From positions 1 through 53,008 of IMG/VR virus record IMGVR_UViG_3300025151_000047: a stretch of 53,008 nucleotides of DNA; one strand, given 5' to 3'. The notes beneath the pieces were generated by a model. It was not told the origin of the DNA. It saw only the letters and a program-made list of their open reading frames with translations, and did no database searches. The translations under genes and the position numbers were made by a program. Of the stretch, positions 2,952-26,636 are shown in pieces. Every line of letters starts with the position of its first letter. Position 1 is the stretch's first letter. This DNA is from a virus.

Positions 2952-3428
2952 TTAGATTACGGGCTTCATCAAGGGCATTGAGACAGACGCATCGGATCCC
3001 ATGGGTGTAAACACCACCTTGGAGCTGCGCTCGAAGTCACGGAAGGCGTGATAGCGCATGACCGCTCCATTCTGTGCGGTAACCTCTGCGACAACACTGC
3101 GTGTGTGCTTGGACAGACGGTGGAGCACCTTACGAGCGTAGAACAGGGCAGGATCTTCAGTGATCCGTGTACCCATGTTTGTGACAACGCCATCGGTACG
3201 CACCCGCTTGAGCGTCAGAGGTCGAGCTTCAGACTTGACAGTCCACATTCTACTCTTCTCCATGCGCTTGATGTTGGCGGCCATTTTGGTCAGACAATCC
3301 CAATACACCACCGCACCGTGAGGAACCCACGATCCTGAGTCCTTCTCAAACACCATCGAGTAGGCATCGAGGTCGCCAACAGAAATCCTCAAGACGCGAT
3401 GATCAGAAATTTTGGTCTGGTAATACAT
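2952..3428 (-). CDS. hypothetical protein (158 aa)
   Basis: A basic, beta-rich soluble protein of 158 residues (MYYQTKISDHRVLRISVGDL...). It lacks cysteine clusters, signal peptide or membrane segments. No family recognised. The start has an AAGGAG site inside a small GCTC/GAGC hairpin shared with two neighbouring genes. The base composition is noticeably more GC-rich than that of the structural genes. Confidence 0.6.
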   Translation of the reverse strand: MYYQTKISDHRVLRISVGDLDAYSMVFEKDSGSWVPHGAVVYWDCLTKMAANIKRMEKSRMWTVKSEARPLTLKRVRTDGVVTNMGTRITEDPALFYARKVLHRLSKHTRSVVAEVTAQNGAVMRYHAFRDFERSSKVVFTPMGSDASVSMPLMKPVI

Positions 3429-5579: not shown

Positions 5580-5647
5580 AGGTTTTCCCCCCAGAAATCT
5601 ATAGGTGTACTTAAATGTTAATAATAAAATCAGATAATATAATGTAA

Positions 5648-5677
5648 GGGGTCTATAGAAAGAAATCTATAGACCCC
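5648..5677. terminator. strong hairpin between the giant ejection-protein gene and the left-hand genes
   Basis: GGGGTCTATAGA (5648-5659) pairs perfectly with TCTATAGACCCC (5666-5677): a 12-bp stem with a 6-base loop. It lies 23 bases beyond the stop of the 14-kb gene. On the minus-strand RNA it is followed by UUACAUUAUAUU, only moderately U-rich. It may end the late transcript or be an RNase III-like processing site. The 12-base word AGAAATCTATAG inside it is repeated at 5593-5604. Confidence 0.55.
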
Positions 5678-5700
5678 CTACACCGTCATCTCTTCTCTTG

Positions 5701-8700
5701 TTATAAGATGGGTTTTTTCATACCCCCTATTAGAGAGTCTCTTAGAAGGGATCCTAAGTTTTCGTATTCAGACATGTCTGGTCTATTTAATTCTTCTTTT
5801 AATGCTGGGATTAAATCAGGATCTCTCATAGAGTCTCTAGGTTGTGACTGTCTTGGTTCGACTGTCCCTTGTCTTGGTCCGGGTGCCTCCCTAACAGGTT
5901 TACTAACTTTAATGTTTTCCATAGGTTTGTATCCAGTCTTAAAGGGATCAAATAAAGGCATTCCAGAGTTTTTCAACATATCGTTTGATACTCTTAATCC
6001 AATAGGAACAATAGCAAAGAACGGAAGGGGGACCATTGAAGCAACATTAGCTGCACCAGTTAAAGCTTCTCCTTGATTGATCTTAGCGAAAGCGTTAGTG
6101 ACTCTAGTGGGTAACTGTAACATACGGTTAACCATAGCAATACCCGCCATGCTGTAGATCTGAGTGTTGGACGGACGCTGACCACGGAGAACCTGTAAGA
6201 GGGTGGCGATGACCATCTGGTTCATACCGAAGAACGGAACGGACATCATGGCATCCTGAATCTCAGACATAGGATCTCTCTTTGCTTTCTCTACCATATC
6301 CTCATAGGAAGTAGACATCTGAAGCTGGATGAGTTTATAATATAAATAACCGGAAAGTGCGTGACCCATAAAAGCTGCCGCAAATGCAGCCATACCGCCC
6401 AGACCAGCTCTATGCATACCGCTGTATACCGTAGAGGAGTAGGTATTAAGGGCCGTAGCTATGGGAGCCAGAGGACCAAGTGCTCTAGCTCCGACAGCAG
6501 GAGCTTCAGATACTGAGGGCTGTTTTGCGTATCTTGTTGCGCCTAACCATAAGATTTCTCTAAGGGCGTTGATTACTTGAATTCTTTGTGCTCTTTCTTT
6601 TGCGTTAGAATTATAATCAAAAGATGTTTCAGAAACCATTTTATCAAACGGCAATCCCTTTTGTTTAATATCATCACCGTAATCATAAAACAGCTTTTGA
6701 ACCACGGGAGCAAGCTCTCTACTGAATAAACCATTCTTAAGCATATCAATAACAACAGTAATTAAATCACTATCCATGTTATAATTACTCTTGAGTTTTA
6801 CTCTAAGTTCTTTCAGAGAAAGCTCATTTACATTCATATCTTGGAATGCTTCAGCCAATTCGTTAAACGTAGGTAAGATTGGTCCTCTAGGAGATCCCGG
6901 TATTAAATTACCTTCATCGTCAATTAAACTAACACCTTTGGACATTCTATAGAATAACCTATTAATATCCTGTGTGGTTTTTCTTGCGCCAATCTGACGG
7001 TTGAGGTTAACCTGAGAATTAAGACCCTTAGACGTAAAGGCGTAAATTCCTTTAGTTAGACCTTCAAATCCCTTATCAAACCTAGATTGATCTAATTTTC
7101 TACCGTCTTCCATACCAATTTTCTGAAGAACAACATTGACTTCTCTTGTCAAATCTTGGGTTATAAGCCCAAGACCTTCTAAGAATGCGTTTTTGTCTTG
7201 CTTACTTTTAAGTAAACCTACACCCTCTTGAATTCTATTATTAGCAGCTTGAAGGTTTGCTTTAAACGAACCAGCTAATGCCATAGGAGTTTCTTCCAAG
7301 AGAGAGGCAAAAGCAAGTCTTGGTCCAATAGCCAAAGCAGACCCTAACTGACCAATATGGTTAAGCATGTTAATGAACGGGATCGAACTAGCATCTTTAT
7401 CGTCCCACTTTAACGTACCCGTACTGTACCTATAAGCACTTTTAATGGCGTTAAAGGCGTGGGTAAACTTGTTCTTCTCTTCGGGCTTAAGACCTCTTTT
7501 TTCACCCATCTGTTTCATAAGCGGATCAAGCATGATATCCTCAAATTGATTGTTTTCAACTAACTGATCAATAGTATCAATCAGATCTGAAATACCAACC
7601 CCACGAATACCAAAAGCGTTTCCGAAGACTTGCCTATCAAATGCTTGAGCTGCCTGCCCCCTCATAAGAGAACCAAATATTTCGGCGGGATCTAAATTAA
7701 GGTGCTTTTTAATAAGAGGGTTCTGAAGCATATCCATGGTATTAAAGAACTTCTCTCCTACAAAGGTATACGTAGAAGAACCGGCTCTCATCATGTAATC
7801 TTCAGCAACAAGATTAGCTAACTTCTCGTCCATTCCTTGCGTGTACGTTCTCTTTTGAGCTTCCTTTGTTTTCTTAAGTCTATCATTTCGTAATTCCATA
7901 ATAGCTTCTTTTTGTTTTTCTGAGAGTGGTCTATCACCTCTAATATGATCGTTGTATACGTCACGTTCAGGTTCCGTAAGCAGATCATCTTTTTTAAGTT
8001 TACCTTTTTTAATATCTCTCATGAAAGAATTAAAGGCAGTGTTAGTATCACCTTTTTTCTGTAAGTACTCATTGTAGATACTAGACGCTGGTCCCATATC
8101 GATGCTAGACGGGGATTTAGTTGCATCGTCTCTCTCAAAGTAATCAGCAAAAATAACCTTAAATAAATCTGCATCAATGAATTCACTGTTAATTAATTCG
8201 TCAGTGATCTGATCACCGATAGCATTTCTCAACTCTTCTCTGGCTTGAATACCGTTTTTGCCATCGTTTCTAAAAACATCGTCTGAGAATTTTACAGGAA
8301 TAACACCTTCAGTAATTAACCTATCTCCCAACGTGGCATCAAATACTCCGCTATCTACCTGAGCGGTAATAATTTGTTTCCAAATACCCCTTTCAGGATG
8401 CGCCCACATTTCAACTAAATCAACAACCTTTTCAATGTTGGTTTCCTGTTCAGCTAAAGTCTTTTCGTCAAGAGTTTGCCCTGCTTTTCTAAAAGCAAGT
8501 TTCATGATTTCTTGTGCTCTATTTTTAGCGGCTTCCCTTCCTTGCCATCCTTTGATTTCGTTAGAGTACTGAGTTTCAGAAACCTTTTCTCTCATAGCCG
8601 TTGAAGCCCAGAACATATCGATGAATAAATCATAGGGAGTATAATCCTCAGTTCCTGTTTTCATTCCCGGCGTAAAGTTACTAAGTTTAATCTCTAAAAG

Positions 8701-11700
8701 ACCATTCATTAATGGTTCAAATATACCCTTTAACTGCAAGCCTAATCCCTGCATGGTAGGCAAGTTGGAACCAAATGCACTGGATGATACTAAGAGTTTA
8801 GTGTCAGTAGCTTGTAATAACATTAAGATTGTAGACGGAAGTCCGTTTTCTTTGTTTGCCATAAACGCGAACTTCTTAAGACCGAAGGGCTGTGCAAGGT
8901 TATGCATCAGTTTTTCTGTCTTTTCTCTACTAATTAAACCACCAGATAAATTACTCATAAGAGTAAAGACAGGGCTATCTACCAGAGTACCTGAAGATGT
9001 TTGCTCTCTCTTAGAGTCTAAGAATCTGTCAATAGCTTTTCGTCTCAAGTCATCGTTTTTAATTTCAAAGGCGTTAAACATACCTTCTTCGTCCGTATGC
9101 TCTCTAATAACATCGTCAAGCCTATGGATATCTGTTTTAAATGCTTCAGGAATATCAGGACGTTTTGGGCCTTCGTTGTTAAAGAATGAATCAGGGCCAT
9201 CAAAGTTATCGAACATTCCACTAACTTCGTCTTGGTCCAACGCATTAACATGAGATTGTTTACGTAAACCCGTCTCAGCCATTAATCCCATACCCTCGGA
9301 ACCAATGAATGTCTTGAAGTTTTTATCGACAAAACTCTTGTATCGGTTATATTTTTCAATATAATGAGAAGCGTTATCAATACCCTCAGCGATGGTTTTA
9401 TTGTCTTTAATTTTCAGCACAAAAGAATTAACATCGTTTCCAAATAGAGCCGAAAGGGCAAACAAGACACCAAACAATTCGTTGTTTACTGAAGGATCAT
9501 ACTCAGGTGAATCAATCCCTAAGTTTTTCTTAAACTCAGATATTCTAGAATCATAAGAGTTTCTTTCATTAGGTTTACCAAAAATCTTTTGCTCTAATTC
9601 GACAAACTTATCGAAGCCCTCTTTATTCTTAAGGAGATCTCTGGCAACAGTCATGTAATCTCTCATGCTTTCTTTGTCGAGTTTGCTGCCAACAATGTGT
9701 CCAATCTCTTCTAAGATAATACCAACAGCACCGAACTCACTGATACCCTCAAAAGATTCTGCAAGATCTTTAGCCACTCTAATTCTTGCTGCAACAACCT
9801 CAGCTCTACCACCCGCTTTTACTTCAGGATCAACAACAACATCTAACGGTTTCGAGTCTCCGAATAGATCCTTTAAAAGAACGTGATTAGCTCTGTCGTT
9901 AAATACGGCCTTTAACAGTAAGTGATCGTTTTTGTTAATAGTTTCCGTAGCAAGAAGTTCGTTTATAACCGTTAAGAAGTTTTGGTGATAAAAACCATTT
10001 TGAGCAAACTTGTCGTTATTAAACACTTCGTCAATAGTATTCGATCCACTGAAGGGTTCATTGCTGTCGGTTCTAGGTTTAATAGAATTAATTTCTAACT
10101 CAGTTTGATTAGCTGCCATTGGAACAGTAGGGTTACTGGTATTTTCGTTCACATCTTTTATTGAGTCAGCAACAGCAAAATCAGCAGTAATCTGCAACGG
10201 ATCTTCCATAATATCGTTTTGATGTCTAATGTTATCAGGGTTATATACAGCTTTATCGTTCTGTTGTTTTAATACGTTTTCTCTAAGCAAAGCAATAACG
10301 GGTAAAATATTATCCCTAAAGTCATCATACATTTCTCGGTAAGTAACGTTTTTCTGACCACGAAGGTTTTTTCTAAGCGTTTCCAGTCGTTTGAAAATAT
10401 TGAATAACCCTTCTTCTTTACCGATAAACGGAACTAAAGACATAGCCCTACTGAATGCTTCCTTATCTACCGAACGAATAGTATCCAAGGCATTAGAGTC
10501 TTCAATACTAAGGTCGCTTAAGATTTCATTAGCATTGATTTCATTTGCAATTGAGTAAGCTTGGCGGATAGACGCATCGTCGTAAACCAAGAATTCAGCA
10601 TCCATAGCTTTCGTACCAATAAACATTGTGTTTCTATTATCAACCTGAGTATTGGCTTTATTTTTAGTCAATCGTTTAATTGCTTGAGTTTGGATCATAG
10701 CATTCTGTCTAACTTCTTGGATAGAAGACCCCTTAGAGCTAAACGGATCGTAACCACCGATAGCATTAGGAAGAGATTTTTCGTAAGGAATATCAATTCC
10801 CATGCTATGAGCAAAAGTAATAGTATCCATTAATTTTTTGTTTACAATAGAGTTAATTGCCATAAGTTTTTCAACAGGTAATAACTTAACTCTAACTCTA
10901 CCTAAGACATAATGAGGAGAGACTGGTTCACCAAACTGGTTAATAAATACATTATCTTTCTTGGAAATAATAGTCTTTTCAGATCTTGTCTTGAGGAGGC
11001 TTTCAATAGTCATTCCTTCCTCAACGCGACCTAACACTCTATCGATATTTGGGAACATCTTCTTCATATCCTGAGCAACAGCTTCTGTCACAGGAATATT
11101 TCTAAGAGATTCGTTCAAGATATGCCGGTTACTATAACCTCTTACAGCTTCATTAGTACCTCTATCAAGTAAGTTTTGGATTGTTTTAGTTTCAGTTTCA
11201 TCTAAAGTTCTAACAAAGTCTTCCATTCCAAAAACATCGGAAGCATCTAACGATTCACCTTGAAGTTTCTTATCGTAGTATTTAGTAAACACCCCAATAT
11301 GCTGACTCGTAATCTCATAGTCCTTACCCATAATTTTACTAATAGCATATCTCTTAGCTGAATTCATGGCGTATAAAGACAGGTAGAGTGCCGGAGAGTC
11401 ACCACCAGAGAAGGCAACCAGAGCATTCATTGCTCTATTGGGATCCTGACCCCTTGCGCTAACAGCAGAGAATCGTCCTTCAGAAGTTAAGATTTCCCCT
11501 AAGAACTCCGCATCACCAGAAAGCCAAGCTAATAAGTTACCTGCTTCAACGTCGTTATTGATAATCATATTTTGAATGGCTTCCTCAATTGTACCAGTCC
11601 CAAACGATACAGGAATTGAAGAAATAGTATCAGCTTCAAGGCTGTACAAATCAGTTACTCTATTTTTAGCATCAAAGCCCCACTGGGTAAGTGCTCTGAC

Positions 11701-14700
11701 AGTCATCTCCTGATCTAAGACAGAGTTATCAACCATGGCATCCAGAGAGTTCTGAGCTAAAATGTAGTTAGTGTTTTCTAATACTAATGTGTTAATCTGG
11801 CTATCAGATAACGATGGTTTTTCTTTCTTAATAGCTGAGAAAATACTATCGTACAAAGACTGGACCTTTTCGGCTTCTAATCGAATCTGTAACTGACTTC
11901 TTTCCGATTCTCGGAGTCCGTTTAAAGAGTAGTAAGCTAAGAGAATCTTATCGTAGTTACCCTTATCTCTGAATTCGTTCAGTTGCTTATTATTAACCGT
12001 TTGTACGAAGTTATCAAGTTCGCTTCGTAAAAGCTCAGATACTTTTTCAATAGTCGGTTGTTTATCTAAGTTAGCAGCAAAAGAATTAAAGATATTAAAC
12101 GGCATTGTTTTCTGTAGTCTCAAGGGCTTAATATCATCTAAGGCTTCAGGAAGTGTATTAGGGTAAGCTAACTCTTCGTCACTAAATGGGCGTTCAGGAT
12201 TTACTCCAGTTAAACCCTTTCTAGTTGTTTGAAGTCTTTCTAATCTAGCTGCTGACGGAGATCTCAATAACTGGGACATCCTAACAATACCCGAAGGGAC
12301 ACCTTCAAAGTTTTCTAAATAAGTTTTAGGCAAGAACCCTAAAGCACTAGGCAGAGAGGTAACTTGAGACGTAGTGTCGTTTCCAGTGATCTCTTCCATG
12401 ATACCAGCTATCTCAGGAGATCTATTTTCTCCCGTAGAATCAATCATCTTAGAAATCATTTTAATTAAGACATCGTACTGTTCTTTATCACCTTCGTTAA
12501 GATTACCTCTATTCTTAGCTCTTTGTAATCTATCTAACTGGGTAATAGCCGCATCTCTAAGTTCAGCAGAATCTCTACTATCCGTTTCCCACTGCTTGAA
12601 GAAATCGTACATGGTAGAAGTCTCAAACTTGTTTCCGCCGATTTCAGGTAAGTCACTTCCGTCAGTAAACTCAGCTGCTTTTATAGCAAGTTCTAAGACC
12701 GTAAGTTTTTCAATTACTTCTCCAATATCTCCAACAATAGGATCATTTCTTTGTTCGACTACGCTATATACCTCACCGTCTCTAAATCTTTTTTCACTGG
12801 TGGGAGTGAAATTAGACGGACTGTACCTTCTACCGTGGTCAGATCCTGCGGCGTTGAAGAAGAAGTCGTTCTCAAATCCTCTTCTAGCGACTGGATTCAA
12901 TCTGTTTAGGACTGTGCTAATAACTTCTTCTCCAACGTTACCGAACATACCTCTCATAGTATCTTCAAATGATGATTCTTTTAATCTGTAAGCTTGTCGC
13001 GCATAGCTGTTTAAGGCATCAACTTTAATATTACGTGCTTCCTCAAAGGTAACAAGAGTGGAATATCTTGAGTAAGCTTCAGTAAAGTCTCCAGTTTCCT
13101 TAGCCTTTTCTAAAAGCTCTTTTAACTGTTCATCTGATTCAATTCTTTCAAGCGTAGTTTCAATGACACCGGAAAGACCCTTAATAGCGTCTTTTTCGTT
13201 TTCGTAGAATTTGTTTTCAACTAAATGCCGTGAAACACCTAAAGTTTTTCTAATAAGCTCACTGAATGAAGAATTTTGTTCTCTGTTGGATGCAGTTGTT
13301 CTACCAATAATTGTATCAAAGTCATCGGTTTCATCAAAGGTACTTCTAACAGCGTTACCAATAGGAATATTACTTTCTTGAGTAAGTTTAAATCTATTGA
13401 ATAAGTCCCTAAGTTTTTCATTGGTAATCTTATTTCCGCCTCTATTTGGGAAAAGAGTTTCTTTCACCCAGCCATTTTCAACGGTAACTCCATTCTCGTT
13501 AAACAGGTTGCCTAACAAATCGGAAGCTGCTATAGCAATTCTTGTATAAGAAGTATCATCAATAATCCCACTGTTAATGATCTTTTCTTTGTTTTCAGGG
13601 ACATTAAAGAACTTATTGTAAATATTATTACCCATAGTTCCTGCACCTGCGTTATACAAGTCAGTCATAGTGGGAGACTTAAATATTTCTTTTAAGGCCA
13701 TATCTAGATCGTCAGCTTGAGTAAAGATTTTTCTAATAGCCTCTAATGCCAAGACATAATCTTCACCCATAGCTTCAACTGCTTTGGTTAAAGTACCGCT
13801 AGGGGTTCTTTCTTCTGCTGTTCTCTTTACACGTTCGTAAATAGTTTCATAGTTTTCAGTAATGAATCTAGATAATCCCTCTTCTCCTTCAGCTTCTCGG
13901 ACTAAATCTCTAAAGAATTGTCTGATTGCTCCGGCACCTTCGATACCTTGGACCATACCAATCATAACATTACCACCAGAAGCATCTGCATCAAGTTCCT
14001 CGACTTGTTTTTTAAAGAGTGTTTTCTGTATACGTTCTCTAACCTCAGGTTGTACTTCGTCAATTCCTCCTCCAAAGAAGAAGGTAACAAAATCATAACC
14101 TGTTTCTTTTTCAAATTTAGAATCGTATAATTTCCTAGCCGCGTCGAAGACACCTCTGTAGCCGTAGGTTATCTCTGCTGCTGCCAACATACCAGATTGA
14201 ATTGTACCACCTCTAGCAAATCCAACAGGGAAACCAAACCCAAGACCATCAAGGGGTCTAATAGTACCACTTTCAGTAGTCACTTCGGGATTAAAGTGAC
14301 CTGCGTCTCCGACTACTAAACTGGAATACATGGGGAACAACGCATCATGAACAGCCGTCATAAAAGCTGGATCAGTAGCAAGGAAATGCTGTTTGTTTAA
14401 GTCAATTGCTCGTTGAATACTGTTAGGCACTTCGCTGGTTAATGACTGGTAGGCTTGAGTGGGGAGAATCAGTAGGCCAGTATCCCTTGATTTATTGGGA
14501 ATAGCATCCTCTTTGATTTTAAACTTAGTTAACCACTCCCTTAATGCTTTAATATCAACACCAGTATTATCTAATTCTGCCTTAAGAATAAAATCAATCT
14601 TACGGTTTAAGTCAAACTCATCGTACATAGAAGCGATAACGGAATCAGACCGCTGTTGGATCTTGCTTTCTCTGCGCTCACCAATATCTACTTTACGCTC

Positions 14701-17700
14701 TAACTTTCCGGTTTTACCCATAACAGCTGTTCTGTTGTTAACTCTGCTTGTGTTTTCTTTCTGGGTAGTTAAAGCGTCGATAACAGCACGGGCTGCTCTT
14801 ACGGGATGTAATAAATCAATCACACCACCTAAGTCCGAAAACTCTTTAATCTTTTTACCAGAGGGTAAAACTGAGTTAAAGTCTTTCAAAAGATTAGTTA
14901 CAATCAAACCGTCAGTAACATTATCGGTTTCAATATTGTTATTTGTTTTCGCTAATCTGGTGATCTTTGTATTGAAGTGGGATTCCCATTCTTCCTTGGT
15001 AATTGGGTTACCATCTTCATCGACATAAGAGTCTTCTCCGTTTGCTTTCCTCCACTCTTCCGCCCTTGTTCTATTAGCTTCGATAATATCTTCAACAAAG
15101 TCAATATTATTTCTAATGCTTCCTTCTCCTTCAAAGAGACCAGTACCATCAATCTTACGATCAAAGATTCTGTTGTAGGTAGCGTCGATACTCTTCATGA
15201 AAGCAGGAGCCTGACCCGGATCAGCCATAGCAAGTTTTTCTCTAATGGAATCTAATACAATATCTCCGTCGTATACTTTTTGTTCTCCTCCTGATTTTGT
15301 ATCAATCAGTCTCATTATCTCAAAACCTGAGTTAGATCCAGCGATTAAACCAAGAAGATCTTCTCTAGAAATTTCATTTGTAAAGTTATAACCTTCTGAA
15401 ATAGACCCAGCCACGTTCTTACCGTTTTGTCGATTAGCTGCAATGTAGTTAGATACATTCATCAGCAGACTCATGAGTGGTTTAACGTGACCAACGGGAG
15501 GTCTTATTTCTACAGAAATTCTTTCAGATTCTAATCTAATCTTGTTGTTTAGAATATCTTTGGTACGTCTTCTAACAGTTTGTTCGATACCATCTCCCAT
15601 TTCCTTCAGGAGGTTAGCAATTTCTTCAAGTTCTTTATTAATCGTAGTCAGTTCTTCTGTTGCAGGTTGTGACTTCTTTCTCCTAGCGATCTCTGCTCGA
15701 AGATCATCGGCTTCTGCGAACAACCTAACGGGTTTAGCTTCTAGTTTTTTATTACCTCCTACCTCAACTTGTGTCACCAGAATTGCAGCACCTTCGTCAT
15801 TGGCTCGACCAGTGCCGTTTTCAATTTCATTCAGCGCATTTTCTAATCGCTCAGTAGGTACGTCTTTCAGATTTGTTTCGGCATTGCCGCCCTTATAACT
15901 TTGTACAGATCCAACAGGCATTTCGTCCTTTGGAGTCATTTTCGCTTCTCTGGTTTCAACTTCACCAAGTTTGCCTGCCGCCTCGTTGAATTCAGCTTCT
16001 AGCTCATCAACATTTTGGCCTCTTTTTTCTGCTTGTTTTCTTGCCTTGTCAGACAATGTAGGTCTTCTCTGGTCTTGGGAACCTTTTCTAAGTGTTTCCC
16101 TCTTAGCTAAAAGCTCTTCTTGTTTAAGCTTAAACTCGTTATACTTATCGTCTTTATCTTTTGCAGTTTTAATTTGTCGTTTTATTAACGCTTCTTCTTG
16201 TGATTCCACTCCCTCTTTAATCAGTTTTTCAATAATCTGCATTTCTTCTGATTTAAAGTAAACACTAGAATCTAAAAGAGACACGGCTTTGTTGTAATTG
16301 TCTGTATCTTGCTGCGTAGGGTCTTTCATTCTTTCGGAAATAGCTGAAGCTAATTCACTCGCGCTCATCTTACTTCGTCCCTTAATTTCTAAGGATGCCG
16401 CAAGATTGTTCAGGACGTTTTTACCGAGTCCTAATTCCTGAACGTCTCCCTTTGCAATTTTATCTCTTACATCTTTGACCTTATGTAAAGCCTCTTCAAA
16501 CTGCTTCTTTTTGTTTTGTCCGTCCTCAAGATTAGAAATAACATCTGCAATATTGAGCTTATCACCATCATCTTTAAGTGCAGTCTTAATATCACCAAGT
16601 TTCATAACTTCAGCGGAATCGAAGGCAGAAAGGAACGCTTCTTCGGGATCTAATCCTTTTTCGATAAGCTGATGGTACATAGTCTCATACAGTTCTGCGT
16701 CTTTAGCTTGGATAACGTTTAAAAAGTTATCATTGACAAAGTTTTTAATTTTTTCCATGTCCTCAAGACTGATACGATCTGTACTGTAATTCTTAATTTT
16801 ACGAAGAAGAGTATCCATGTCTTCGCTGATGTTTGTCATACTGAGTAAACGATTAATGAGATCTTCATCCATACCAAGCACACCCATAATGCTTGCAAAA
16901 CTGGGAGCATCCGCTTCTTTATCAAAGGTCAAATCTTCAACAATTTTATTTCTAAGTCTTTTACGGAAATCAGAAATATCTTCAATTAAAAAGTCATCTT
17001 CAGCCTTTATTCTTCTACCTACAAGAATCGCATGATTATAGACATTATCTTCGTGCGCGGATTTCTGTTCATTTTGGGTTTTAGTCAGCGATTCTAACTT
17101 ACTTTTTTCTTTAGTAATTTGATCTCTTAATTCTTTTTTCTTGTTCTTATCAGTAGTGTTTTTTAATTGCTCTTCTAGATTCTTAACGGTAGATTTAACT
17201 TTACTGATTTGTTCAGTTGTTTTATCTAATGCGTCTTGACTTTCGTTACTTGCTTGGGATGCCTGCTCCTCTTGGGTTCTAAGATTGGTAAAATCTTCTC
17301 GACTACGAATAGTTTCAGAGCTAGAAGGCTCTACTCCGTTCACAGTTGCGTCAGCAATTTGTTGCCTTCTTTCGATGGGGTCTACCTTTTTTATAGCACT
17401 TTCCGCAAGTCTTACGTTTAATTCCTTAGCCTTAAATTCCTTATTTCTTGCAATCAAATCATCCTTAAGGCCATCTGTAAGTCGTTTAAGAAACTCATCT
17501 ACCGAAATAGACTCATCATCTTTAATACTATTAGCAATTCTTTTTGCAGTTTTTCTAATAGTAAGACCTGATTGGTTAGCAGTAGAGGCTATTTCGTGGA
17601 TTTCGGTTTCAAGCCTATCGAGGTTACCTTCAATCTTTGAATTATCGTCACCAACATCTAATTTAGTGAAAACATAGTTTACAGACATCCTAGCATCAGC

Positions 17701-19725
17701 TGTAATACTATTAGAGGTAGCTCTGTTAACGAAAGCTTTAACAGACCTTGTAAATCTAGATTCGTTTTTCCGAATTGAGTTAAGCCTATCTGAGACAACC
17801 TTGTTTAATTGAGTCATCCACCCTCGTTTTCTACCTTCTTCAGGAGAGTCTGGACTATCAGGATCAAGATCCCTCTTCCCTCTACTAGCTAAGTTAAACC
17901 GATCAGAAAGGTTACGTCCAATGTTAGCAGTAACATCAAACGCTCCACCAACTGCGGGAGACAGTAAACCACCGGCTACACCACTCATTGCCATACTAAG
18001 CCAGATAGCACCGCTCTGCTCTCTCTGGTAGGCCATAGCGTCTGCTGCTTCTTTTCCGTACATAGCTTCATTTAAAACATCCTCAACGGAACTAGCATAC
18101 TTGTATTCTAATGCGCCCCAAATAACACCTTCACTTAACCCAGAAATAGATCGGTAAGCTATTTTACCTGTAACACTTTTAGGAAGATAATCGCCCGCTT
18201 CTAAGTATGTTACTAAGTTTTTAAAGTTCTTTCCTTTACCCGCCCTAAGCGTGTACATAGCAGAGGGGGCTAAAAGCTCAGAGACAATCTGCGTGGGCAT
18301 GAATCTCTGGAAGTGAAGTGCTTTATCGGCTATTCCTCCAACGATCTTACCAGCTGATGATAGACCAACATCTGCTGCTTCTCCCATCCAGTGAATACCT
18401 TTTCTCGTTCTTGTCGCTTTATTGAAAACCGACATTGAGTTAGATACTTTAGTAATATTACTAATTGCAGCAGAACCCTTTAAAGTAAACGCTGCTCCCT
18501 TTAATACCGAATATCCACCTACGGTGGCAGCAGTAGCAAGAATATCTAAAGGTAAAGAAGGGTCAGCAGTAAACCCATAACCAAACATATTAGCGTAAGC
18601 TTTAAACGTAAACTCTCCGTTAGATCTTCCTAAATGTTCAGCGACAGAGTATTCGATTTGTTTTTTGTTAACGCCAGCAATAAACGCAACAGGGTTTTTA
18701 GACTCCACTAAATCCTTAATAAACTCAGGATTCTTTCTAAGATAATATAACATATCTTGGTTTTTAGTTGTAGTCAGAGCTTCAGCTAACATATTTCTTG
18801 TACCGGGAAGCTCATCAGTACCTACCCAAGTCTTATCATCGTACCGGTACAACTTATCGACAGCATCTTCCGTCCCAAACATGGATTCGTAAGTTGAGAT
18901 TTTTTCTCCTGTCATGTAATCAGGAAGAAGTTTTGCAATATTATCAATAAACCATCCATTGCCTGTTCCGGCTGTAGCCATAGCAATTTGCTGTTCAATT
19001 TCTTTTTGTCTGAAAATATCATCAAACTCAGAATCACGTAAGGGGTGATCTTCAGGAAGAGAATCAAAAACCTGCCTTAAAGCAAACTCAGTTTCTTCTC
19101 TCATACGCATCTGTAAAGCTTGGTCAGACATAATACCCGCAGTTTTACCAAGTATAGACTGATTTTCAGCGTACTGAGTAGCATTTGTAAGTTTAGATGC
19201 TTGATACGACTCACGTAAATCGTAGAATCTCATGCCCGTTTCACCCGGCATAGTAGCAAAAAGTTGGCTATTAAGCAAGGTAGGAGCTAACGTAGGATCG
19301 TCAATAGAACGGTGGACACCTTCAATAAATTTAGGATCTGAAGATTCAATAACGATTTGTTTCTCACCGTTTTCGTCTACTACTTCTTTTGCGAGTGATG
19401 TAAATAGGTTAACAAAATAATTATTTTCCGCTTCAACTCTTTGAATAGTTTCCTCAGGAGAAAATCGTTCTGGCCTGAATAAATTATCAGCCGCTGCTCT
19501 AAAGTTATCTCTTAAGTTCATAACTTCAGTTTGATCTAACATATAGTCAGCCGAATAAACTGAGTCTGCTAAAAACCCGCTAAGGTTTTGTGAAAGCTCG
19601 TATTCAGCTAGATAATCATTAAGTTTTTTAGGACGAAGTGAGTCCTCAAACTCTTTTTTCTTTAAAGCATTAACGTAATTAGTAGCTTCTCTAGAATAGT
19701 TCTCACTATTGTATTGAATAGGCAT
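5701..19725 (-). CDS. giant internal virion/ejection protein (4674 aa), candidate virion RNA polymerase
   Basis: Last of three ejection-protein genes, in the position of T7 gp16. Visible parts: hydrophobic segments near residues 388 and 588; a coiled coil near 818-893; a segment resembling single-subunit RNA polymerases at about 1912-2030; a zincin-like EEIGH at 3339-3343 with a later NNELFGVLFA (E about 3416); and a glycine/alanine-rich hydrophobic C-terminal region at about 4415-4590 like those of large polyvalent phage proteins. The polymerase-like pieces are DASGGNVMIG (D1914), TIYERV (about 1961) and FKSPTMTDLYNAG (K2016, M2020, T2021, Y2024). D-to-K spacing is 102 residues, against 94 in T7 RNA polymerase. 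No DxxGR motif lies upstream and no certain motif C was found. No lysozyme motif was seen at the N-terminus. AGGAG precedes the ATG. Ejection-protein role likely; polymerase activity inferred. Confidence 0.8.
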   Translation of the reverse strand: MPIQYNSENYSREATNYVNALKKKEFEDSLRPKKLNDYLAEYELSQNLSGFLADSVYSADYMLDQTEVMNLRDNFRAAADNLFRPERFSPEETIQRVEAENNYFVNLFTSLAKEVVDENGEKQIVIESSDPKFIEGVHRSIDDPTLAPTLLNSQLFATMPGETGMRFYDLRESYQASKLTNATQYAENQSILGKTAGIMSDQALQMRMREETEFALRQVFDSLPEDHPLRDSEFDDIFRQKEIEQQIAMATAGTGNGWFIDNIAKLLPDYMTGEKISTYESMFGTEDAVDKLYRYDDKTWVGTDELPGTRNMLAEALTTTKNQDMLYYLRKNPEFIKDLVESKNPVAFIAGVNKKQIEYSVAEHLGRSNGEFTFKAYANMFGYGFTADPSLPLDILATAATVGGYSVLKGAAFTLKGSAAISNITKVSNSMSVFNKATRTRKGIHWMGEAADVGLSSAGKIVGGIADKALHFQRFMPTQIVSELLAPSAMYTLRAGKGKNFKNLVTYLEAGDYLPKSVTGKIAYRSISGLSEGVIWGALEYKYASSVEDVLNEAMYGKEAADAMAYQREQSGAIWLSMAMSGVAGGLLSPAVGGAFDVTANIGRNLSDRFNLASRGKRDLDPDSPDSPEEGRKRGWMTQLNKVVSDRLNSIRKNESRFTRSVKAFVNRATSNSITADARMSVNYVFTKLDVGDDNSKIEGNLDRLETEIHEIASTANQSGLTIRKTAKRIANSIKDDESISVDEFLKRLTDGLKDDLIARNKEFKAKELNVRLAESAIKKVDPIERRQQIADATVNGVEPSSSETIRSREDFTNLRTQEEQASQASNESQDALDKTTEQISKVKSTVKNLEEQLKNTTDKNKKKELRDQITKEKSKLESLTKTQNEQKSAHEDNVYNHAILVGRRIKAEDDFLIEDISDFRKRLRNKIVEDLTFDKEADAPSFASIMGVLGMDEDLINRLLSMTNISEDMDTLLRKIKNYSTDRISLEDMEKIKNFVNDNFLNVIQAKDAELYETMYHQLIEKGLDPEEAFLSAFDSAEVMKLGDIKTALKDDGDKLNIADVISNLEDGQNKKKQFEEALHKVKDVRDKIAKGDVQELGLGKNVLNNLAASLEIKGRSKMSASELASAISERMKDPTQQDTDNYNKAVSLLDSSVYFKSEEMQIIEKLIKEGVESQEEALIKRQIKTAKDKDDKYNEFKLKQEELLAKRETLRKGSQDQRRPTLSDKARKQAEKRGQNVDELEAEFNEAAGKLGEVETREAKMTPKDEMPVGSVQSYKGGNAETNLKDVPTERLENALNEIENGTGRANDEGAAILVTQVEVGGNKKLEAKPVRLFAEADDLRAEIARRKKSQPATEELTTINKELEEIANLLKEMGDGIEQTVRRRTKDILNNKIRLESERISVEIRPPVGHVKPLMSLLMNVSNYIAANRQNGKNVAGSISEGYNFTNEISREDLLGLIAGSNSGFEIMRLIDTKSGGEQKVYDGDIVLDSIREKLAMADPGQAPAFMKSIDATYNRIFDRKIDGTGLFEGEGSIRNNIDFVEDIIEANRTRAEEWRKANGEDSYVDEDGNPITKEEWESHFNTKITRLAKTNNNIETDNVTDGLIVTNLLKDFNSVLPSGKKIKEFSDLGGVIDLLHPVRAARAVIDALTTQKENTSRVNNRTAVMGKTGKLERKVDIGERRESKIQQRSDSVIASMYDEFDLNRKIDFILKAELDNTGVDIKALREWLTKFKIKEDAIPNKSRDTGLLILPTQAYQSLTSEVPNSIQRAIDLNKQHFLATDPAFMTAVHDALFPMYSSLVVGDAGHFNPEVTTESGTIRPLDGLGFGFPVGFARGGTIQSGMLAAAEITYGYRGVFDAARKLYDSKFEKETGYDFVTFFFGGGIDEVQPEVRERIQKTLFKKQVEELDADASGGNVMIGMVQGIEGAGAIRQFFRDLVREAEGEEGLSRFITENYETIYERVKRTAEERTPSGTLTKAVEAMGEDYVLALEAIRKIFTQADDLDMALKEIFKSPTMTDLYNAGAGTMGNNIYNKFFNVPENKEKIINSGIIDDTSYTRIAIAASDLLGNLFNENGVTVENGWVKETLFPNRGGNKITNEKLRDLFNRFKLTQESNIPIGNAVRSTFDETDDFDTIIGRTTASNREQNSSFSELIRKTLGVSRHLVENKFYENEKDAIKGLSGVIETTLERIESDEQLKELLEKAKETGDFTEAYSRYSTLVTFEEARNIKVDALNSYARQAYRLKESSFEDTMRGMFGNVGEEVISTVLNRLNPVARRGFENDFFFNAAGSDHGRRYSPSNFTPTSEKRFRDGEVYSVVEQRNDPIVGDIGEVIEKLTVLELAIKAAEFTDGSDLPEIGGNKFETSTMYDFFKQWETDSRDSAELRDAAITQLDRLQRAKNRGNLNEGDKEQYDVLIKMISKMIDSTGENRSPEIAGIMEEITGNDTTSQVTSLPSALGFLPKTYLENFEGVPSGIVRMSQLLRSPSAARLERLQTTRKGLTGVNPERPFSDEELAYPNTLPEALDDIKPLRLQKTMPFNIFNSFAANLDKQPTIEKVSELLRSELDNFVQTVNNKQLNEFRDKGNYDKILLAYYSLNGLRESERSQLQIRLEAEKVQSLYDSIFSAIKKEKPSLSDSQINTLVLENTNYILAQNSLDAMVDNSVLDQEMTVRALTQWGFDAKNRVTDLYSLEADTISSIPVSFGTGTIEEAIQNMIINNDVEAGNLLAWLSGDAEFLGEILTSEGRFSAVSARGQDPNRAMNALVAFSGGDSPALYLSLYAMNSAKRYAISKIMGKDYEITSQHIGVFTKYYDKKLQGESLDASDVFGMEDFVRTLDETETKTIQNLLDRGTNEAVRGYSNRHILNESLRNIPVTEAVAQDMKKMFPNIDRVLGRVEEGMTIESLLKTRSEKTIISKKDNVFINQFGEPVSPHYVLGRVRVKLLPVEKLMAINSIVNKKLMDTITFAHSMGIDIPYEKSLPNAIGGYDPFSSKGSSIQEVRQNAMIQTQAIKRLTKNKANTQVDNRNTMFIGTKAMDAEFLVYDDASIRQAYSIANEINANEILSDLSIEDSNALDTIRSVDKEAFSRAMSLVPFIGKEEGLFNIFKRLETLRKNLRGQKNVTYREMYDDFRDNILPVIALLRENVLKQQNDKAVYNPDNIRHQNDIMEDPLQITADFAVADSIKDVNENTSNPTVPMAANQTELEINSIKPRTDSNEPFSGSNTIDEVFNNDKFAQNGFYHQNFLTVINELLATETINKNDHLLLKAVFNDRANHVLLKDLFGDSKPLDVVVDPEVKAGGRAEVVAARIRVAKDLAESFEGISEFGAVGIILEEIGHIVGSKLDKESMRDYMTVARDLLKNKEGFDKFVELEQKIFGKPNERNSYDSRISEFKKNLGIDSPEYDPSVNNELFGVLFALSALFGNDVNSFVLKIKDNKTIAEGIDNASHYIEKYNRYKSFVDKNFKTFIGSEGMGLMAETGLRKQSHVNALDQDEVSGMFDNFDGPDSFFNNEGPKRPDIPEAFKTDIHRLDDVIREHTDEEGMFNAFEIKNDDLRRKAIDRFLDSKREQTSSGTLVDSPVFTLMSNLSGGLISREKTEKLMHNLAQPFGLKKFAFMANKENGLPSTILMLLQATDTKLLVSSSAFGSNLPTMQGLGLQLKGIFEPLMNGLLEIKLSNFTPGMKTGTEDYTPYDLFIDMFWASTAMREKVSETQYSNEIKGWQGREAAKNRAQEIMKLAFRKAGQTLDEKTLAEQETNIEKVVDLVEMWAHPERGIWKQIITAQVDSGVFDATLGDRLITEGVIPVKFSDDVFRNDGKNGIQAREELRNAIGDQITDELINSEFIDADLFKVIFADYFERDDATKSPSSIDMGPASSIYNEYLQKKGDTNTAFNSFMRDIKKGKLKKDDLLTEPERDVYNDHIRGDRPLSEKQKEAIMELRNDRLKKTKEAQKRTYTQGMDEKLANLVAEDYMMRAGSSTYTFVGEKFFNTMDMLQNPLIKKHLNLDPAEIFGSLMRGQAAQAFDRQVFGNAFGIRGVGISDLIDTIDQLVENNQFEDIMLDPLMKQMGEKRGLKPEEKNKFTHAFNAIKSAYRYSTGTLKWDDKDASSIPFINMLNHIGQLGSALAIGPRLAFASLLEETPMALAGSFKANLQAANNRIQEGVGLLKSKQDKNAFLEGLGLITQDLTREVNVVLQKIGMEDGRKLDQSRFDKGFEGLTKGIYAFTSKGLNSQVNLNRQIGARKTTQDINRLFYRMSKGVSLIDDEGNLIPGSPRGPILPTFNELAEAFQDMNVNELSLKELRVKLKSNYNMDSDLITVVIDMLKNGLFSRELAPVVQKLFYDYGDDIKQKGLPFDKMVSETSFDYNSNAKERAQRIQVINALREILWLGATRYAKQPSVSEAPAVGARALGPLAPIATALNTYSSTVYSGMHRAGLGGMAAFAAAFMGHALSGYLYYKLIQLQMSTSYEDMVEKAKRDPMSEIQDAMMSVPFFGMNQMVIATLLQVLRGQRPSNTQIYSMAGIAMVNRMLQLPTRVTNAFAKINQGEALTGAANVASMVPLPFFAIVPIGLRVSNDMLKNSGMPLFDPFKTGYKPMENIKVSKPVREAPGPRQGTVEPRQSQPRDSMRDPDLIPALKEELNRPDMSEYENLGSLLRDSLIGGMKKPIL

Positions 19726-22700: not shown

Positions 22701-23707
22701 CCCATAGCTTGTAAATCTTCATCTACTGATGAAGTATATTTAGACATTTTATGAATATTTGCTGTTCGATTCAGTTGCCCATTTACTAAAAGTGTAGAAG
22801 CGTTTCGACCTCTGGCTAAACGATTTTGAATTGTAGTCTGAGCAGCATAAAAAGAGCTAACCTTTTGATCGACTGCTTCCATAATACCGGGGTTATCTAA
22901 TACGTTTCTAGGATCAATACCAGCTTCTGAAAGGCTAGTCTCTAAAAAGTTTCTAATAGTATTATTGAACGCTGTTGCACCCAGACCAACCCTACCAGCA
23001 CCTTCGCTATTTAGAATAACATCTAATTGAGTATTAGTAATATCGTATAATCTGTTAAACTGTTCCTTAAGATCGTTTGAGATCTGACCCTGCAACCAAC
23101 GATCACCCGAAGTTTTTAACTGTGGGTTAGCACTAGTAAAATCTTTAGTTGCCGCCTCAAGAAAATCTTGCCTACTGAGACCTTCTCCTTCTGAAACGAT
23201 GGGATAGTTATTCGATTCTCTGAGAGTTTTAGAAGCCCAACTAGTAAACTTAAGATCGTCTGTAATTCCATTTAATTCTTGTAATGCCTGAGTTCGTTGA
23301 TTATGAGCTGCAACCTGAGACGTTTTAGTCAGGGGTTTAAACTCAGCATATGCTTGATCAATCATACGAAGCTTAGACTGGTAATCGATATTGTCTTTCT
23401 GAAGAATATTACCAACTAATAGTTGGACATCTTGCATTCTTTCTCTATCTACTCTATCTCTGATTCTTCTTCCTTCTTCTACTAATCCAGTAATTGGACG
23501 TAAGGTAGCGAGAAGATCAGAAGCGATATTACTCTGTGGGGCAAAGGCAGTTCTTGCGTTCGCTCCGAATTGAATACCACCGAGCTGGGGCATAGAAAGC
23601 ATTTCAGCTTCTTTGTAAACAGTAGGAGTACGCCTTTCTAATCTATCTAACTGACCGGGAATTCTTCCCGACATTTGAACCATATCGTTTTTAGTTACTT
23701 TAGGCAT
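19745..23707 (-). CDS. internal virion/ejection protein, T7 gp15-like by position and size (1320 aa)
   Basis: A large soluble, mostly helical protein without cysteine-rich or beta-helix features. It begins MPKVTKNDMVQMSGRIPGQL. It lies between a short glycine-rich gp14-like gene (8-base overlap) and the giant last gene, the gp14-gp15-gp16 order of T7-like podoviruses; T7 gp15 is about 750 residues, so this is a long version. Such proteins form the inner core above the portal and are ejected to help make a channel for DNA. AGGAGG precedes the start. No peptidase or lysozyme motif was seen. The assignment rests on context more than sequence. Confidence 0.65.
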   Translation of the reverse strand: MPKVTKNDMVQMSGRIPGQLDRLERRTPTVYKEAEMLSMPQLGGIQFGANARTAFAPQSNIASDLLATLRPITGLVEEGRRIRDRVDRERMQDVQLLVGNILQKDNIDYQSKLRMIDQAYAEFKPLTKTSQVAAHNQRTQALQELNGITDDLKFTSWASKTLRESNNYPIVSEGEGLSRQDFLEAATKDFTSANPQLKTSGDRWLQGQISNDLKEQFNRLYDITNTQLDVILNSEGAGRVGLGATAFNNTIRNFLETSLSEAGIDPRNVLDNPGIMEAVDQKVSSFYAAQTTIQNRLARGRNASTLLVNGQLNRTANIHKMSKYTSSVDEDLQAMGEALSLSPAGQAGMFTYLYNGVKQVPSIIDRDSAITNTRLLSRYNVLRFPEELQPFVKKVQEEPEYLSTILGEGSEGDRAAYAMAMRAYSGLYRQDFELFFGSNQRTGQLLQAARQAEMTTGPVNPVTVPSSPPPEANREDERIYTTRTIIDNLYSSQYGDNQKSIIDNMLDFRIAAYDFEYQEATSGVGMGKYPQSPMPMELMFPDAEKYMSLRDSIDESLFDDDFEAYTQIARKMVNEGIDIPTPQRFTEQATATSSTVSALSNGVTVNDYQSSSEAMDHLSYAAMSLGEEAFNNISRSVNSTILEDFRRANLPYLNDMAFKGIEAIIEDEDVNALMKFKNIAEILERKGNSEIFEGDQRYVGFVNSFEDSMQRLGNKVAFESGGIFSYSDGVFKFSDDNEKVVPYLSSFMESYKEKRQIHGYSLDFPKGVQQELNKRMNGLIEEIEQAKTQGQGELNNWMQSNLTKVAPIFGLVSGNGISFLPEETVEKSSDLLASILGIPASNFKSSRPRNAGAFEATPDRVIDIRNFALANSVALLGNRPEDINNYARVIQGYQGLIFEDTQIPSRAIFDRRIVFENSNIGNDVNDVLNMDRVTGLPRSNEEEIIKNREKGRVATEELMAEMTRVGLDDPQVFNFSMETGELYRSMLATLEAEGKRTSEFSADALLTQSLNTAGKRVVVSIVEVDNEDDSKPGLTAYMEEKDELYDGRFFTYSVKVMPASKDPVADGFSSPFEFNPFTEQGEFLSRIESELEINDPLAQAEIVSQSETIVPYDTFKLLNSQFKQLQGVSGDWMEVLRRLVNHNGLKRGLSHAKKGDQDSYEYGISELGLNQGIAFYIQLQQMSQLPNPEVKTSKFIKNMLDYTDATDTKGIPKLFAAVLGTGLDTTIETNFGEGLGFGQEQEYMLDEKYFLQIKENILRNSNRNFSDKVFEPANWMYNLDMIPLLYSAQEKENIKEVLNRMNRNMKLNPYYTMSKFISDT

Positions 23708-24453: not shown

Positions 24454-24945
24454 TTATTTCTCCATAAAAGAAAGTATTTTATCTAAGTTATTATCTATAT
24501 CCTCAGTATAAACGTGCAAGATAGGGTAATTAGCTTCTTGTAATGCTTTAGTAAGACACCACCTAGACCAATCTATGATATCTGTAGGTGGATTAAAAGG
24601 GGATTCAAATTTAACTAATTCCTGTTCTTTTTTAAAAATTCTGTTAACACTCTCTAATTGGCGATTTTTATCTTTTCTCTCCAAGATAACTAGTCTGTCA
24701 ATGTTATAGACTGGGGTTTTTAACAACACGGCAGGCCACACCTTTACACACATACCTTTCCAGATATGATCAGCGCAGCCTTTTTCAACAACAAGAGGGT
24801 CAACTTCCCAAAAACCATCGGGGTTTTCTTCTTTGGGAGTAAAATATAAAAACTTTTTACCAGCAATAGGTAATCCGTTTTTACGTAAAAAATTCATAGT
24901 AAAGGATGAACCAACTCTGGGTCCAATTCCTGTTACAACTTTCAT
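24454..24945 (-). CDS. sulfotransferase-like P-loop protein (163 aa)
   Basis: The N-terminus MKVVTGIGPRVGSSFTMNFL matches the start of sulfotransferase-like folds, where a GxRxGSS loop binds the 5'-phosphosulfate of PAPS. A later segment (RLVILERKDKNRQLESVNRI) looks like the R/S-containing strand that binds the 3'-phosphate. At 163 residues it is shorter than typical sulfotransferases (about 250-300), so it may instead be a P-loop kinase relative. It overlaps terL by four bases (ATGA) and precedes the ejection-protein genes. Its substrate is unknown; modification of a surface or virion component is possible. Confidence 0.5.
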   Translation of the reverse strand: MKVVTGIGPRVGSSFTMNFLRKNGLPIAGKKFLYFTPKEENPDGFWEVDPLVVEKGCADHIWKGMCVKVWPAVLLKTPVYNIDRLVILERKDKNRQLESVNRIFKKEQELVKFESPFNPPTDIIDWSRWCLTKALQEANYPILHVYTEDIDNNLDKILSFMEK

Positions 24946-26636
24946 TGATTAAATTTCCTTAAAAGCCTGTTTTTAAAATAACTAGGTTTGTTCATTTTAA
25001 GGTGTTCTCCGTTAACCTGTACATTACCGATGCATCTATCAAATCCAATACTCTGTATTCTTCTAGCATCGTTTTCCCAGTTTTGAATAATGTTTTCATT
25101 TCTTAACTGCTCTGCTTCTGCTACCTTATCGTCTACGTTAACTCCCAAGGAATCTTCCCAATAAGCTACGCTAGAAGCAAGAACATCTATGCGGTCATCG
25201 TGTTTAAGAGATCCTTTAACTTCTGTAATTCTAGTAATTTGACGTTGTGTCTTTTCCTGTCTGATAACCTTGGGATCAACAACTAGTCTATGGGATGACA
25301 TAGCTGGCTCCAGTGTACCGATAATTCTTTTACTCTTATTACCCGTAACTCTGAACTCCTCAATACCCGCTTCACATCCCATGCGTTTCATTACGGGAAG
25401 AAGAATTTGTCCAAACATAGCATCGCCAAAGTTAGACTCAAACCTAATTAAAGATACTTCTGTTTCCATAGCCATCGTAACGATCTTCTCAAGCGTCTGC
25501 TCAGAGTAGCCACCCTGTAGGCCATCCAACTCAAGAATAAAGACATAGCCATTAAGATACCCGGAGACACATATAGCAGTTTCATCTGCTCCGCGACCAC
25601 TAGGGTCAATGTGCATAACTTTATGTACATAATCCTCATAATTTTGTGAAACCCACATAGGCTCATACAGGACATCTCCACTCAATCCAAAAGAAGGTAA
25701 TTTTTTATTAACGTGTTTAGATGCCCAAACAATCTTTTCAGGGGCTACTGTATAATCACAATCAAGTACAATCAAATCAGCCAACCTAAGGGGATACCTG
25801 TCAGCGTCAGCCAGTGAGGTATCTAGGTGGTAATGCAACGAGAACAGTTTAGGACCAACTTTGGCCTTACGCTCCATGAGAAGATCCAGATCGAATCTCT
25901 CAGGCTGGGTAGACTCTCCGGGCTGGAGATCTAGTTCTAATATATAATCAGCACAGTCAGCAATCTGACCGGGGCTATCAGGATCCGGCATCAGAGCCGG
26001 GAACTTGTGGATCGGATACCCGTCAGCCATCTTACGGTAGATCGACTCAGAGGTCTGAGGCGTACCCAGAATGCGTACACCACCCTCTCCGGGGTTACGG
26101 ATCTGCTCGATCTCCCAGACCTTCGTGAGAAGCCGCTCACGGCTCTCTGCGGTCTCCGAATTCTTTTCGATCTCAACATCGTCCAAGATCACCCAATCGG
26201 CGTGAGACCCCGTTATCTGCCCTGTAACGCCCCGTGCGAAGCAGCTTAAATCCTGCCCGTGAGCAGTCCTGTTTTCGACGTTAAATCCGAAGGCATTATC
26301 CTTGGTATTTGGGCCGGGTTCCATGTGCTGACAGTACGGCACAAGGGACAGAATACGGCGTGTCATGGAGATGAACTCTGTAGACTTATTGGCCGTAGCT
26401 GACATGACCATCACCGTAGTATTAGGATCCTTCAGGAGCAGCCACGATGCGAAGCAAGCCGTTAGGACAGACTTACCGGCACCTCGACCGGCCTGAAGCT
26501 GGAAGCCGTCAGGGCCGTTCTGGAGCTTCTCAGCCATAGCGTATTGTAGTGGAGTAGGCTCCCCCAAGCCTAGATACTTGAAACAGGCCCACAAATGATT
26601 CCTGAAGTCATCAAGCATTTCTTGGGGTATATTCAT
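24942..26636 (-). CDS. terL: terminase large subunit (564 aa)
   Basis: The packaging motor ATPase and nuclease. Residues near 50 contain the Walker A motif (QAGRGAGKS), and about 100 residues later comes Walker B (WVILDDVEIE). A coupling-type motif follows (RILGTPQTSES). The C-terminal nuclease half has HIDPSGRGADETA, with the first catalytic aspartate, and KHDDRIDVLA near the end, with the last. The length matches T7 gp19-type enzymes (about 580). The gene overlaps both neighbours by four bases. The 5' third (about 25.9-26.6 kb) is clearly more GC-rich than the 3' part, which hints at a mosaic origin. It packages DNA at the portal encoded at 49011-50576. Confidence 0.95.
   Translation of the reverse strand: MNIPQEMLDDFRNHLWACFKYLGLGEPTPLQYAMAEKLQNGPDGFQLQAGRGAGKSVLTACFASWLLLKDPNTTVMVMSATANKSTEFISMTRRILSLVPYCQHMEPGPNTKDNAFGFNVENRTAHGQDLSCFARGVTGQITGSHADWVILDDVEIEKNSETAESRERLLTKVWEIEQIRNPGEGGVRILGTPQTSESIYRKMADGYPIHKFPALMPDPDSPGQIADCADYILELDLQPGESTQPERFDLDLLMERKAKVGPKLFSLHYHLDTSLADADRYPLRLADLIVLDCDYTVAPEKIVWASKHVNKKLPSFGLSGDVLYEPMWVSQNYEDYVHKVMHIDPSGRGADETAICVSGYLNGYVFILELDGLQGGYSEQTLEKIVTMAMETEVSLIRFESNFGDAMFGQILLPVMKRMGCEAGIEEFRVTGNKSKRIIGTLEPAMSSHRLVVDPKVIRQEKTQRQITRITEVKGSLKHDDRIDVLASSVAYWEDSLGVNVDDKVAEAEQLRNENIIQNWENDARRIQSIGFDRCIGNVQVNGEHLKMNKPSYFKNRLLRKFNQ

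Follow-up and report, generated by a model that had tools for sequence, protein, structure and literature searches.

The closest described systems are the ejection machineries of phages N4 and T7. N4 has a virion RNA polymerase (vRNAP) as its third ejection protein; it is ejected with the DNA and transcribes the early genes, including that of a second phage RNA polymerase (PMC12633501, PMC4496689), while in T7 the same slot is occupied by gp16, and the host RNA polymerase is recruited as a motor (PMC12633501). Giant single-subunit RNA polymerases (ssRNAPs) carried in the virion have been described as unique to the Schitoviridae (PMC12633501). The motifs with conserved catalytic function in the N4 vRNAP are A, B, C and TxxGR (PMC4496689), and an HExxH motif follows its RNA polymerase region (PMC12633501). 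Rearranged motif orders are known from the permuted RNA-dependent RNA polymerases of Permutotetraviridae and Birnaviridae, in which motif C lies upstream of A (C-A-B) and the geometry of the active site is kept (PMC8310298).

Here we analyse a 53,008-base virus record from an uncultured T7-type phage (the window, meaning this whole stretch of DNA), for which a first-pass annotation had proposed ssRNAP-like motifs within a giant protein in the ejection slot. With a probability of about 0.8, we read this protein as a virion component that is ejected and contains, in its middle (residues ~1390-2570), a diverged ssRNAP working like the N4 vRNAP. New here are the register of motif A, candidates for motif C and for the DxxGR arginine, a probable permutation of the motifs, 20 relatives, and a second phage polymerase.

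Gene context of the giant protein

The giant gene is the third of an ejection operon (gp14-type, gp15-slot, giant), as is that of N4-type vRNAPs, and farther upstream lies a T7-type structural module comprising terminase, nozzle, tail tube, capsid and portal (Table 1). Given the gp14-type and gp15-slot genes that precede it and the T7-type module upstream, the giant fills the slot of T7 gp16 in a gp14-gp15-gp16-like operon, as the first-pass annotation had placed it.

Several further features of the window were recorded. Directly 3' of the giant gene is a very stable terminator-like hairpin of 19 pairs (5641-5684, minus strand), which is kept in L046 and L077. The nozzle protein (41274-45779, minus strand) has an increased length of 1501 aa, of which Pfam Phage_nozzle matches the C-terminal third only, and positions 52598-53008 (minus strand), read by eye, apparently encode the C-terminal end of a class II ribonucleotide reductase.

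Table 1 Features of the window bearing on the giant protein (residue numbers refer to the giant; coordinates to the window)
Feature	Residues	Coordinates	Strand	Evidence or remark
Giant ejection-slot protein, 4674 aa, T7 gp16 position		5701..19725	-	Single ORF; downstream of gp14-/gp15-slot genes
gp15-slot ejection protein, 1320 aa		19745..23707	-	Position; homologues at same place in L001, L002, L030
gp14-type internal virion protein, 250 aa		23700..24452	-	Pfam T7_gp14 E 6e-8, over curated cut-off
Terminase large subunit, T7 type		24942..26636	-	Pfam Terminase-T7_RNaseH-like E 1e-32; PHROG 38 E 2e-91
ssRNAP-like region	1390-2570	12016..15558	-	Shared by 21 giants; nearly all invariant columns are polymerase active-site residues
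Conserved helical domain ahead of motifs	1530-1655	14761..15138	-	AlphaFold2 pLDDT ~90; includes invariant G1633
Motif C-like DPAFMTAVHDA	~1785-1797; Asp 1794	14335..14367	-	D1794 21/21; upstream of motif A
Motif A-like LDADASGGN	1909-1921; Asp 1912	13963..14001	-	D1912 21/21, G1917 18/21; hhalign of A-Y-B to N4
DIY-like TIYERV	1958-1968; Tyr 1963	13822..13854	-	Y1963 20/21
Motif B, O-helix-like KEIFKSPTMTDLYNAG	2012-2027; K2012, K2016, M2020, Y2024	13645..13692	-	K2016, Y2024 21/21
DxxGR/TxxGR-like SDHGRRYSPSNFTPTSEKRFR region	R2299, K2312, R2315	12781..12846	-	R2299 20/20; downstream of motif B
EEIGH motif	3339-3343 (stretch 3330-3348)	9682..9738	-	Group 1: EE[IL]GH throughout; group 2: HExxH in several

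Relatives of the giant protein

Searched directly, the window protein has no match in Pfam, PHROGs or the PDB, and tblastn against 50,697 phage records likewise returned none. Its assignment consequently rests on homology, as there is no direct library match. Single-protein pattern searches of viral contigs found nothing, and genome contigs likewise yielded none. With the terminase as an anchor, 34 relatives were recovered in IMG/VR, and downstream of the relatives' terminases lie giant ORFs of 4600-5400 residues. Including ten giants added by a scan with the N-terminus of group 2 (see below), 20 further homologous giants were obtained from metagenomic phage contigs, making 21 with the window protein.

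The giants form two groups. Those of group 1, to which the window protein belongs (L046, L047, L048, L049 = L050, L051), align with it over their full length at 22-48% identity, their intact ORFs being 4610-4746 aa long, while members of group 2 share 11-14% identity with it, and BLAST detects almost no similarity between the two groups. The relatives' cores had no tblastn match above threshold among phage records; a match to a Gordonia tape-measure protein (E 0.08) was sub-threshold and was judged to be chance.

Polymerase-like motifs and their conservation

The minus strand of positions 13600-14000 translates to ...ELDADASGGNVMIGMV...NYETIYERVKRT...LKEIFKSPTMTDLYNAG..., and on re-reading the DNA we find the motif strings where the first-pass annotation had placed them, including K2016, M2020, T2021 and Y2024 of motif B and the string TIYERV, whose tyrosine is Y1963. 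The register of motif A requires correction, however, as the catalytic aspartate is not D1914 but D1912, the first D of DADASG, through which this string aligns with DGSCSG of T7 (D537) and DGVTNG of N4 (D559). Because the motif A aspartate is D1912, the spacing between it and the motif B lysine becomes 104, rather than the 102 originally given.

When the residues of the window protein were shuffled 20,000 times, a pattern of D(2-3)SG, 80-120 residues and KxxxMTxxY arose in 8 cases, and conservation in homologues is far stronger evidence than this rarity. We aligned the giants with MAFFT over residues 1390-2570 (1,181 residues), with no motif information supplied. Ten columns are invariant among the first 11 giants, and five remain so in all 21, namely G1633, D1794, D1912, K2016 and Y2024; P1755, P1824, Y1963 and R2299 are near-invariant, the last being present in all 20 sequences that reach its column (the remaining one ends before it). 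Among the acidic columns of this region, D1794 and D1912 alone are invariant, and only columns 1709, 2012, 2016 and 2299 have K/R in at least 18 of the 21 giants, with position 2012 (T7 R627) being K or R throughout. Methionine occupies position 2020 in 17/21, with leucine in the remainder, and column 1961 is aspartate in 15/21, as in the DIY of T7 and the DLY of N4. The giants moreover show the motif A pattern D-x3-S/N-G and the motif B pattern R/K-x3-K-x3-M-x3-Y-G.

As far as can be judged from sequence, these conserved columns match the active-site set of ssRNAPs, that is, the aspartates of motifs C and A, the lysine and tyrosine of motif B, the tyrosine of DIY and the arginine of DxxGR. 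The putative T7 equivalents are D537 for D1912, K631 for K2016, Y639 for Y2024, R627 for K2012, Y571 for Y1963, D812 for D1794 and R425 for R2299.

Outside the catalytic residues, the sequences have drifted to 11-14% identity between groups. Such divergence, together with a DxxGR context that is degenerate in part of the family, would suit a former polymerase that is now catalytically dead and retained as a structural core or channel domain. Under that explanation, however, it would be surprising that the catalytic residues are the most conserved positions in a region that has otherwise diverged so far, and we regard it as improbable; the polymerase region is very probably catalytically active.

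Profile similarity to RNA polymerases

PF00940 (RNA_pol), which was searched independently of the proposed motifs, has matches in the giants of G004/G005 (E 2e-5 in a single-genome search; ~0.007 for an all-Pfam scan) and the giant of G022 (E 1e-4), covering the part from the DIY-like motif (Y) to motif B. PHROG 414, annotated as 'RNA polymerase', matches 5/21 giants (best E 9.3e-5), while every other family matches at most two members. Aligned by hhalign to nine N4-type vRNAPs, the A-Y-B region gives P 3.6e-6 and pairs A on A, DLY on TIYER and B on B, with a score of 51.1 against a maximum of 19.2 for 200 column shuffles and 12.1 for the reversed profile. A T7-type RNAP profile scores lower than N4 (30.2), yet higher than all 200 shuffles (maximum 18.7). 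The similarity to N4 is one of profile to profile only, the giants having no tblastn match to gp50 in the phage collection. No comparable polymerase signal was obtained for gp16 of T7 or of HTVC019P.

Profile matches to ssRNAPs are therefore found, via the relatives for PF00940 and PHROG 414 and at P 3.6e-6 for N4, and in combination with the conservation described above they support the original proposal of ssRNAP-like motifs in an ejection-slot protein. A chance resemblance of motifs in a helical ejection protein might be argued from the shuffles in which the pattern recurs and from the window protein's lack of a direct library match, but the invariance in 21 relatives, the library matches in two groups, the 0/200 shuffles and the fact that neither T7 gp16 nor HTVC019P gp16 has such matches leave this explanation with a negligible probability.

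A further alternative is that the region belongs to the wider A-family superfamily as a DNA polymerase or primase, and not as an RNA polymerase. It resembles DNA polymerase A in the O-helix, where that family likewise has R-x3-K-x7-Y-G, and in motif C, which takes the form HD-x in both. Nevertheless, the profile matches are to PF00940 and PHROG 414, with no DNA_pol_A among the matches listed, and the best profile partner is the N4 vRNAP. Additionally, position K+4 holds Met or Leu and the next one mostly Thr or Arg, and S/N-G is present in motif A as it is in ssRNAPs. We see little likelihood of a DNA polymerase or primase, and the region is in all likelihood an ssRNAP homologue.

AlphaFold2 on an 11-row alignment gave a model with a mean pLDDT of 60, in which residues 1530-1655 form confident helices (pLDDT ~90) and the palm region reaches 30-40; with this model, at that palm confidence, a Foldseek/PDB fold search returned no match.

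Order of the motifs

In canonical ssRNAPs, the motifs follow the order DxxGR - A - DIY - B - C. In all 21 giants, the apparent order runs from C (1794) through A (1912), Y (1963) and B (2016) to DxxGR (2299). No HD-type motif C was found C-terminal to motif B in the giants, and the invariant HD-type aspartate lies upstream of A, in a signature that reads PAxMxT[VI]HD[AS] in group 1 and [IVL][HYQ]D in group 2. Similarly, no DxxGR/TxxGR motif (T) was found N-terminal to motif A; for this motif, which the first-pass annotation had not seen, a good candidate, and the sole one, exists downstream of B as R2299 in SDHGRRY. With motif C placed ahead of A and DxxGR behind B, the core appears to be permuted, and because C and T have swapped ends, this is not a simple circular permutation.

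When the profile of the whole 4674-residue giant was scanned with N4 motif segments, the A-B, B, C and TxxGR segments each ranked the predicted place first. The motif B profile finds its best match at motif B (P 4e-5), the C segment at 1779-1808, with D951 on D1794, and the TxxGR segment at 2283-2319, with R424 on R2299, although the motif C and DxxGR alignments are insignificant when taken singly (P 0.08-0.3). K2312 and R2315, at +13 and +16 from R2299, are spaced like K437 and R440 of N4, the residues by which the initiating nucleotide is held (PMC4496689). In the same whole-giant scan, T7-derived C and T segments did not pick the predicted places, and group-2 profiles recovered A-B only, and neither C nor T. 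A re-ordered T-AB-C construct showed no gain over controls against N4 and T7 profiles; with N4, 22 of 150 random constructs scored as high.

These results bear on another possibility, namely an ssRNAP domain without permutation, with D1794 and R2299 serving a structural purpose and the real motif C at some other site. In its favour, it would be unusual for C and T both to change places, the re-order test does not discriminate, and D2429 is invariant within group 1. As an alternative motif C, however, D2429 was rejected, as it is not conserved in group 2, and besides D1794 and D1912 the 21 giants have no invariant acidic column. Moreover, D1794 stands within [IV]HD[AS], the motif C signature of N4 and T7, and when the whole giant is scanned, the best places for the N4 C and T profiles are at D1794 and R2299, respectively. 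We therefore consider an unpermuted domain unlikely and a permuted order, C-A-Y-B-T, likely. No permuted DNA-dependent ssRNAP with this order was found in the literature.

Beyond the polymerase region, the EEIGH motif is possibly a degenerate relative of the HExxH of the N4 vRNAP (HELVH, C1 domain), and as such a zincin remnant. An extra HExxH occurs ahead of the polymerase region, at residues ~910-1160, in the N-terminal parts of L093, L095 and L052.

Early region and second polymerase

Of 24 relative contigs searched, 13 encode a canonical T7-type RNAP of 814-859 residues, and the others are mostly fragments. Between the giant and this RNAP, relatives apparently encode ThyX. In G022 (the contig of L111), a third RNA_pol-like ORF is present besides the canonical RNAP and the giant (23162-24085; 595 aa; PF00940 positions 80-361, E 5e-29).

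A hairpin-promoter search of the early region revealed conserved terminators or hairpins and a structured block, with no convincing hairpin promoter identified there, and sigma-70-like sites were at chance level. The block itself (window ~2650-2840, minus strand) is conserved, non-coding, apparently structured and common to five contigs, and has no Rfam match.

Proposed role and implications

We infer injection from the position in the T7 gp16 slot and from the parallel with N4; in this way, the phage may deliver a transcription enzyme of its own to the cell, and the giant is probably ejected and used early. It would be packaged as part of the internal core, pass through the tail with the gp14/gp15-type proteins, refold in the cell and stay near the channel. 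There, it would transcribe, from presumed target promoters, the leading end as it comes in; this end is the early region that follows the giant gene and, in relatives, holds the T7-type RNAP gene. The giant would so take over from the host RNA polymerase the part of first transcriber, and perhaps that of DNA-entry motor. The T7-type RNAP, switched on by the giant's polymerase, would then take over. In the putative active site, D1912 of motif A and D1794 of motif C would bind the two catalytic metals, K2012, K2016 and Y2024 of the O-helix would contact the NTP, and R2299, K2312 and R2315 of the DxxGR region the hybrid or the initiating NTP. Taken as a whole, the proposal of a new class of DNA-dependent ssRNAP, with a permuted core built into a T7-type ejection protein that enters first, pulls in and transcribes the genome and activates a canonical T7-type polymerase, seems to us to have somewhat better than even prospects.

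A second, far-diverged lineage of virion ssRNAPs in T7-type phages would link two ejection systems: that of T7, in which the DNA is pulled in by host RNA polymerase recruited by gp16, and that of N4, in which gp50 is itself the polymerase. If confirmed, the permutation would be comparable to that of birnavirus polymerases and, to our knowledge, would be the first in an active site of the T7/mitochondrial RNA polymerase superfamily. Furthermore, our reading predicts that early transcription in this uncultured group of phages does not depend on the host RNA polymerase, and it provides a collection of new candidate transcription enzymes.

Comparison with known systems

The virion RNA polymerases of crAss-like phages also lie within a giant virion protein, but they have a double-psi beta-barrel fold of multisubunit type with a DxDxD motif, and not that of an ssRNAP. 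Permuted RNA-dependent RNA polymerases share the proposed position of motif C before A, and are unrelated enzymes. With the T7 RNAP family (PF00940), the giants have in common the motif A aspartate, the DIY tyrosine, K-x3-M-T-x2-Y-G in motif B and a candidate HD-x motif C; they differ in that the domain is embedded in a virion protein, C and DxxGR appear to be transposed, and relatives also possess a normal copy. T7 gp16 is similar in the position of its gene after gp14-/gp15-type genes and in its presumed ejection and inner-membrane role. Unlike the giant, gp16 is 1318 aa long, has no polymerase motifs and carries a transglycosylase (endolysin) domain; no Pfam match to an N-terminal lytic transglycosylase domain was found in the giant.

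The N4 gp50 and Schitoviridae vRNAPs differ from the giants in motif order (T-A-Y-B-C as opposed to the probable C-A-Y-B-T), in size (3,500 as opposed to ~4,600-5,400 residues) and in gene surroundings, the giants lying among T7-type head and ejection genes, and there is no BLAST similarity. Both nevertheless appear to be giant virion ssRNAPs placed as third ejection protein, and the giants share with the N4 vRNAP the motif B form K-[NS]-P-x-[LM]-T-x2-Y-G-x-G, the GR-x12-K-x2-R spacing, possibly an HExxH-type motif after the polymerase, and a second phage RNAP that would act later.
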